The position numbers were made by a program, and so were the translations under genes. 64,000 bases of DNA. Origin: Desulfurococcus sp. Lineage in GTDB: Archaea > Thermoproteota > Thermoprotei_A > Sulfolobales > Desulfurococcaceae. Positions 33,045 through 35,943 of this stretch are shown here, piece by piece. The first letter of the stretch is position 1. Every line of letters starts with the position of its first letter. The stretch spans positions 248,001-312,000 of the forward strand of contig JAPNUX010000003.1 of NCBI GenBank assembly GCA_026626905.1. The letters are read 5' to 3'. The notes beneath the pieces are model-generated. The model was not told the DNA's origin. It saw only the letters and a list, made by a program, of their open reading frames with translations, and did not search any database.

Positions 33045-35801
33045 TTGAGTACGCAGGAATTCCTTGAATGGCTGAGGAGTGTTGAAGCTAAGTGGCAGGC
33101 TAGATGGAGGAGGGATAGAGTCTTCGAAGCTAACCCTGATCCAGCTAAACCTAAATACTTCATTACAGTGCCGTACCCCTACACTAATGCGCCGCTACAT
33201 ATAGGGCATGGGAGAACCTACACGATAGGTGATATAGTAGCCAGGTATAAGAGGCTGAAGGGGTTTAATGTTCTGTACCCGATGGCCTTCCATATAACTG
33301 GGACACCAATAGTAGCTGTCTCAGAGATGATTGCCCGCGGCGAGAAGCCAGTTATAGAGATGTACAAATCGTATATTAGATACTATGTAAGCGATGAATC
33401 AAGAGTCGAGGAGATAGTTAAATCCTTTACTAACCCGCTCAACCTAGCAGAGTTCTTCGCTGATAAAGTTAGCTTGGACTTTGATGCACTAGGATACAGT
33501 ATCGACTGGAGGAGGAGATTCCACACTGGTGAACCAGCATACAATGCTTTCATCACATGGCAGTACAGGAAGCTCATGGAGAAGGGAATGATTGCTAGAG
33601 GCGACCACGTAGTCACCTACTGCCTGCTGCACAAGCAGCCGGAGGGAGAGGATGATATACAGGATGCAGACGTGAACCCAGTGGAGATACTAGAGTATAC
33701 AGCCCTTAAATTCCATGAGGAGGAGGCAGGTAGATACCTTGTAGCTGCAACTCTAAGACCAGAGACCATATACGGTGCTACGAATCTATGGGTTAACCCT
33801 AATGCTAGATACCTTGAATTAGAGTGGAGAGGAGAGAGGATAGTAGTCTCGGAGAAAGCCTATGTAAAGCTTGCACACCAGTATCCAGAGGATGAGATAA
33901 GAGTACTAGGGGAGATACAGGGGAGAGAGCTTGTTGGGAGAACAGTTACTTCTCCAATCGGTGTTAAACTACTCGTGCTACCAGCCCGGTTCGTAGACCC
34001 TGATAATGCAACCGGCATCGTATACAGCGAGCCCAGCGACGCCCCCTACGACTACATTGCATTAGAGGAGCTGAGAAGGAGTAAGGAGACTCTAAGAGAG
34101 TACGGGGTTGAGCCAAGTGTACTTGACTCCATAAAGCCAGTGAAGATCATCAATGTACCCGGCGTAGAAGGCCATCACGCAGCCCTCCTAGTTGAGAAAG
34201 CTGGTATAACAAGCCAGATGGATCCACGGTTAGAAGAGGTGACGGCAAGCATATACAAAGAACAGTACTATAATGGCGTCATGATAGTCGACGACCCCCT
34301 TGTAAAAGGGCTCCCAGTTAGAGAAGCTAGGAGTAAAATCAGGGAGAAACTAATTAGTGAAGGAAAAGCATTCACCTTCTACGAGTTGAATAGAAAAGCG
34401 AAGTGCAGGGCTGGAGGCGAGATAATAGTAGCTAAGATTAAAGGACAGTGGTTCCTAAACTATGGTTTAAAGGATGTTAAGGAGAAAACCAGGAGGTTCA
34501 TTGAGGAGAAGCTCACTATAATACCCGAGAAGTACAAGAAGGCTTTCCTTGATACATTAGAGTGGCTGGATAAAAGACCCTGTGCTAGAAAGAGGGGTAT
34601 AGGGACACCACTACCCTGGGAGCCCGAGTGGATTATTGAGAGTCTAAGCGACTCTACAATATACATGGCATTCTACACTATAATCCACAAGATCCGCGAG
34701 TACAATATCAAGCCTGAACAACTCTCCCCCGAGGTATTCGACTACATCTTCCTGGGTATAGGGGATCCAGCTGAGATCTCAGGGAAGACAGGTATACCCT
34801 TGAAGGCCCTGGAGGAGATGCGCAATGAATTCAGTTACTGGTACCCAGTCGACCAGAGGCATACATCCATACCACACATAAGCAATCATCTCTCATTCTA
34901 CATTATACACCATGTAGTCCTCTTCCCGCCGGATCTCTGGCCTAGAATGATAACGCTCAATGAAGCTGTTATACGTGAAGGAGCGAAGATGTCTAAGAGT
35001 AAGGGGAACGTTATACCATTAAGAGATATTGCGAGACTATACTCAGCAGACCTCTTCCGCCTCTACATATCGTGGGCTGCAGAACTTGATAGTATTCTAG
35101 ACTGGAGGGAGAGAGAAGTTGCTACAGTAGTCGACTCACTAAGAAGGTTTACTGAGCTAGCTAGAAGTGCTGCTACAGCTGAATGCAGTAGCATGCCAGT
35201 AGACGATCCAGCGTCAAGATGGTTTATTGATAAGTTCAACCAGCTGGTTGCTAATGCCACCGAGAGCTTAGAGCGCATGGAGATCAGGAAGTACGTGCAG
35301 GAAGCGTTCTTCAATGCTTTAACAATAGTGGAGAAGTACCGTGACCTAGCCGGCGACCACTATCTCTGCGGAGTAAAAAGTATTCTGAAAGACTGGATCA
35401 CAATTCTCAACCCGGTGATACCTCACGTAACAGAGGAGATCCATGAGATTATGGGTGGTAGCAGGTATCTCTCGCTCAGCTCGTGGCCGCAGCTTAAGCA
35501 GCCAGTTAACATCGAGCTGGATGTAGCTATGGATCACGCTATAGCGCTACTAGAGGATATAAGAGAAGTAGTAAGACTACTCAAGAAGACACCGTCAAAA
35601 ATATACGTTATTGTAGCACCAGCGTGGAAGCGGGAGGTAGCCATTAAAGCTATGGATGGGGTTCCGCTCAAAGAGGTCGTAGACTACGCTAGGAATACTT
35701 ACGGGTTGAAAGGTAGAGAGATTGAGATCGTCGAAGCATACAACCACTTCAAGAAGCAGCCGATAAACGATGTTAGAGTTAAGCAGCCAAGTGGAGTATA
35801 A
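33045..35801 (+). CDS. leuS: Leucyl-tRNA synthetase, main open frame (C-terminus continues in another frame)
   Basis: 918 residues in this frame. Archaeal/eukaryotic-type LeuRS: HIGH at 52-55 in PLHIGHGRT, CP1 editing domain with TLRPETIYGATN, KMSKS at 648-652, then the helical anticodon-binding region. The TTG start has GTGGTG 9 bases upstream. The frame closes with a TAA just after NDVRVKQPSG. A neighbouring frame (35791-35943) then carries a 50-residue continuation ending LPLKPSIYVI, which is how archaeal LeuRS proteins end. That tail touches the long variable arm of tRNA-Leu. The gene is therefore split by a +1 shift, by a real mutation, by programmed shifting, or by an error in the sequence. 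Confidence 0.95.
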   Translation: MSTQEFLEWLRSVEAKWQARWRRDRVFEANPDPAKPKYFITVPYPYTNAPLHIGHGRTYTIGDIVARYKRLKGFNVLYPMAFHITGTPIVAVSEMIARGEKPVIEMYKSYIRYYVSDESRVEEIVKSFTNPLNLAEFFADKVSLDFDALGYSIDWRRRFHTGEPAYNAFITWQYRKLMEKGMIARGDHVVTYCLLHKQPEGEDDIQDADVNPVEILEYTALKFHEEEAGRYLVAATLRPETIYGATNLWVNPNARYLELEWRGERIVVSEKAYVKLAHQYPEDEIRVLGEIQGRELVGRTVTSPIGVKLLVLPARFVDPDNATGIVYSEPSDAPYDYIALEELRRSKETLREYGVEPSVLDSIKPVKIINVPGVEGHHAALLVEKAGITSQMDPRLEEVTASIYKEQYYNGVMIVDDPLVKGLPVREARSKIREKLISEGKAFTFYELNRKAKCRAGGEIIVAKIKGQWFLNYGLKDVKEKTRRFIEEKLTIIPEKYKKAFLDTLEWLDKRPCARKRGIGTPLPWEPEWIIESLSDSTIYMAFYTIIHKIREYNIKPEQLSPEVFDYIFLGIGDPAEISGKTGIPLKALEEMRNEFSYWYPVDQRHTSIPHISNHLSFYIIHHVVLFPPDLWPRMITLNEAVIREGAKMSKSKGNVIPLRDIARLYSADLFRLYISWAAELDSILDWREREVATVVDSLRRFTELARSAATAECSSMPVDDPASRWFIDKFNQLVANATESLERMEIRKYVQEAFFNALTIVEKYRDLAGDHYLCGVKSILKDWITILNPVIPHVTEEIHEIMGGSRYLSLSSWPQLKQPVNIELDVAMDHAIALLEDIREVVRLLKKTPSKIYVIVAPAWKREVAIKAMDGVPLKEVVDYARNTYGLKGREIEIVEAYNHFKKQPINDVRVKQPSGV

Positions 35802-35943
35802 TATCTTCAAGTATATGGCGAAATACTATTCTCACAAGCTGAATGCAAGCGTAGAAGTCTTATGGGGGGATGAAGCAAGGATTAAGGGTATCCCAAGATA
35901 TGAGAGAGCACTGCCGTTAAAGCCGTCAATATATGTTATTTAA
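35791..35943 (+). CDS. leuS: Detached C-terminal segment of leucyl-tRNA synthetase (+1 frame)
   Basis: 50 codons in the +1 frame relative to the main leuS frame, overlapping its last 11 bases. The peptide begins VEYNIFKYMAKYYSHKL, continues EVLWGDEARIKGIPRYE and ends LPLKPSIYVI. It has no separate promoter or ribosome site; the GTG at 35791 is the first possible start. The clear LeuRS-tail character and ordinary codon use mean that it is, or recently was, translated as part of LeuRS. It could be produced by frameshifting, by reinitiation as a separate small subunit, or only exist because of a one-base error in this sequence. Confidence 0.8.
   Translation: MEYNIFKYMAKYYSHKLNASVEVLWGDEARIKGIPRYERALPLKPSIYVI

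Follow-up and report, generated by a model that had tools for sequence, protein, structure and literature searches.

A frame break confined to one Desulfurococcus draft assembly, probably a sequencing or assembly error, puts the C-terminal tail of an archaeal leucyl-tRNA synthetase out of frame

The window analysed here is a 64,000-nucleotide stretch of a Desulfurococcus sp. genome, a draft in 8 contigs (GCA_026626905.1; contig JAPNUX010000003.1, positions 248,001 to 312,000), and carries a leucyl-tRNA synthetase (LeuRS) gene, leuS. Its 0-frame ORF has a TTG start, encodes 918 amino acids ending in KQPSGV, and stops at a TAA codon (35799–35801). In profile searches the product exceeds the curated thresholds of both NF008957 (1124 bits, cut-off 677) and TIGR00395 (872 bits, cut-off 648.5), and by these two families leuS encodes an archaeal LeuRS. 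The NF008957 match covers profile positions 4–882 of 946. The C-terminal end of the profile, to about position 945, does not follow in the same frame; positions 897–945 are instead matched in the +1 frame, which is open from 35767 to 35943 and overlaps the 0 frame by 32 nt. The first-pass annotation had described these two frames, and ORF reading, NF008957 and tblastn all agree with it. The features of the locus are as follows.

33045–35801, plus strand: leuS 0-frame ORF, archaeal LeuRS without its last ~54 residues (NF008957, 1124 bits, profile positions 4–882 of 946)
35764–35801, plus strand: limits of the frame break, from the +1-frame stop to the 0-frame stop, set by the open frames; homology places the break near 35777–35779
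35779–35943, plus strand: C-terminal LeuRS tail (LSSQVEYN...LKPSIYVI) in the +1 frame, stop included (NF008957 positions 897–945 of 946; conserved at the level of congeners; sole copy in the genome)

The +1-frame tail had been recognised as the normal end of an archaeal LeuRS, and this identification holds. When the C-terminal part is joined across the break, it aligns with the LeuRS of Pyrococcus horikoshii as far as residue 966 of 967 (PDB 1WZ2, a LeuRS-tRNA-Leu complex). The catalytic, editing and anticodon-domain architecture is that of the archaeal/eukaryotic-type enzymes (NF008957/TIGR00395; P. horikoshii, 1WZ2), which share the C-terminal tail, but here the final ~54 residues fall outside the reading frame of the rest. 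Contact of this domain with the variable arm of tRNA-Leu, as also claimed in the first pass, agrees with the literature, where the domain is assigned to the variable loop (PMC3834818). The assembly contains one LeuRS copy, leuS itself, and neither a second LeuRS nor a tail encoded elsewhere in the genome was found. A LeuRS search of a wider contig collection, from which the records of the window's own genome were possibly excluded, returned distant matches only.

Searches by tblastn with the LeuRS of two congeners, G001 and G002, each split the match into two neighbouring segments, one in frame 1 and one in frame 2: residues 2–912 and then 914–966 of the G002 query, and residues 11–922 and then 923–975 of the G001 query. 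Homology in frame 0 ends at 35777 or 35780, and the +1 segment begins at 35779. From the TTA codon at 35779, LSSQVEYN aligns with VASQLEYS in G002 and ISSSTEFN in G001, which means that KQPSGV belongs to out-of-frame sequence. The earlier call near KQPSG (CAG-CCA-AGT-GGA) had the +1 frame right, but the shift lies slightly upstream of it, near 35777–35779. The linker at the break measures 28 nt in the window's genome and 30 nt in both congeners, so that a loss of two bases fits as well as a gain of one.

The tail shows congener-level conservation. Its identity to the tails of G002 and G001 is 65% and 63%, respectively, and these two share 63% with each other. Read in the +1 frame, about half of its differences from the congeners fall at third codon positions (12/15/27 and 13/16/26 at first, second and third positions, compared with 10/13/29 for the intact pair G001–G002). 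The tail is thus undecayed and, judging from this substitution pattern, looks like sequence still translated in one frame with the remainder of leuS, which implies that the break is an artefact, is very recent, or is still expressed across.

By the first pass's own standard, unbroken relatives would count against its reading, and the comparison shows both congeners and the other matched relatives to be unbroken. A C-terminal query was matched in 49 of 61 genomes of the order; in 48 of the 49, both congeners among them, the end of leuS is unbroken, and the window's genome is the only one with stops or two frames there. Across 197 surveyed genomes of the order, the LeuRS matches listed (at least ~1125 bits), one short match in G143 apart, reach profile positions 944–946 without stops. 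The G143 match was considered as a second break and rejected, as it runs to the contig end. A search for a second assembly of the same species found none. Since the relatives are unbroken, a conserved recoding or split-gene system loses support, and the balance shifts towards an error or a recent private indel. The list of options drawn up beforehand (error, +1 shift, split enzyme) still stands as a list, but the unbroken relatives remove support for its last two members as conserved systems. Separately, among the matches listed, at least 12 genomes of family f11 (G105, G110, G125, G130, G139, G149, G153, G157, G161, G166, G172 and G175) each have a pair of complete LeuRS-type genes, with scores of ~1125–1155 and ~1230–1323 bits.

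The background rate of frame breaks was surveyed by comparing ~594 kb of the 1272 kb assembly with congener sequence, ~1 Mb from G001 and 200 kb from G002. Among 271 non-overlapping gene-sized stretches matched by G001 ORFs there are two real frame breaks, the survey being blind to those that leave a very short tail: one in leuS, the other in a conserved gene for an MrfA-like DEAD-box helicase with an MrfA Zn-binding domain. The helicase break is also private and lies on the minus strand of contig C1 near 85,031 (~5031 in L146); the C-terminal ~37 residues are in another frame, and a conserved Cys motif is broken. Three further candidates, near 152.3k on contig C3 and near 90.2k and 174.2k on C1, were rejected because the matches are antisense to or between long ORFs. 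G001 has two clear private breaks of its own (C1, ~693,646 and ~784,964; L132 and L136). Named by eye, the genes concerned are a 2-oxoacid:ferredoxin oxidoreductase-like alpha subunit and an amidohydrolase-like gene adjoining leuS, and the break in the latter resembles a short tandem duplication (WRALDEGI...WRALDEGI). Sporadic private breaks are thus background in these assemblies, and the leuS break fits such scattered small indels.

The leuS break probably arose from an error in sequencing or assembly. On this reading, an otherwise ordinary single-copy archaeal leuS is interrupted by a small indel found in this assembly alone, and the organism's real gene would be uninterrupted; the fault likely lies in the sequence and not in the cell. 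This reading draws on the private break, the single-copy gene, the intact tail, the lack of a slip site or structure, the second private break, the draft state of the assembly, and the expectation from a genome-wide GeneTack study of frame transitions, in which sequencing errors, and not genuine indels, were the expected source of BLASTp-validated singletons (PMC3711429). The leuS break resembles such singletons in being private, in a conserved gene and followed by an undecayed downstream piece, with no motif at the break. It differs from others in lying near the 3′ end and lacking a homopolymer, which makes a real indel somewhat likelier. Frame breaks near the 3′ end were enriched for genuine indels in the same study (PMC3711429), and this counts against an error, as does the absence from the frame overlap of any homopolymer run longer than AAA, so that the break does not fit the usual pattern of a homopolymer miscall. 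The assembly is also otherwise good, with only the two real breaks in the ~594 kb sampled. Weighing an error against a very recent mutation is a matter of judgement, as the computed results fit both.

A real, recent and strain-specific indel is the strongest of the alternatives, though an unlikely one. The cell would then live with a LeuRS ~54 residues short, or with a little full-length enzyme made by unprogrammed slippage. The 3′ location of the break argues for it, as do the clear private breaks in G001 and a linker length that fits a single two-base loss. Yet leuS is an essential gene, present here in a single copy; the missing residues are part of the domain in contact with the variable loop of tRNA-Leu (PMC3834818), and none of the relatives examined is without the tail.

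It is improbable that the DNA is right and that this archaeon produces LeuRS through +1 recoding lacking any known signal, or else as two pieces, one of them a tRNA-contacting subunit of ~50 residues; no positive evidence for programmed frameshifting or a functional split was found. LeuRS of Aquifex aeolicus is an alpha-beta enzyme in two pieces, with a fixed split elsewhere in the protein. A functional split in Desulfurococcus would likewise give two pieces, the 918-residue product assembling with a separately started tail. The tail frame has two candidate starts, ATG 35770 (~57 amino acids) and GTG 35791 (50 amino acids). The leuS stop follows the ATG by 29 nt, close enough for translational coupling to be possible, and the undecayed tail also suits this arrangement. 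No Shine-Dalgarno-like motif is visible in the sequence before either start, however; the piece is small, the cut runs through one domain, and none of the relatives examined has a split. A literature search on split LeuRS returned nothing useful. We regard such an enzyme as very improbable.

Programmed +1 ribosomal frameshifting, which would yield full-length LeuRS, is the least credible reading. Conservation of the tail as coding sequence and the 32-nt overlap would suit it, but a conserved frame transition, the criterion for such frameshifting, is absent from the relatives. By inspection, the overlap holds no codon that would re-pair well in the P-site after a +1 slip, and the downstream sequence folds no more stably than shuffled versions (z = +0.26; matched by 119 of 200 shuffles), giving no sign of a stimulatory RNA structure. 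According to a 2021 review, frameshifting has been shown in one cellular archaeal gene, fucA1, where it is −1 at a poly-A site; further cases have been suggested in archaeal viruses and magnesium chelatase genes (PMC8211752). Like leuS, Sulfolobus fucA1 is a crenarchaeal enzyme gene in two overlapping frames, but its poly-A site is slippery and comes with a rare codon and a putative stem-loop, whereas leuS has no slip site or stable stem that we could find and shifts in the +1 direction (PMC8211752).

If the leuS break is a sequencing or assembly error, as seems probable, it serves as a warning: even a draft assembly with a completeness rating of 99.9% can present an essential gene as broken, and most of the question is answered by comparing the locus with congeners. 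Were the deposited DNA correct, leuS would be an essential archaeal gene with a rare frame transition.
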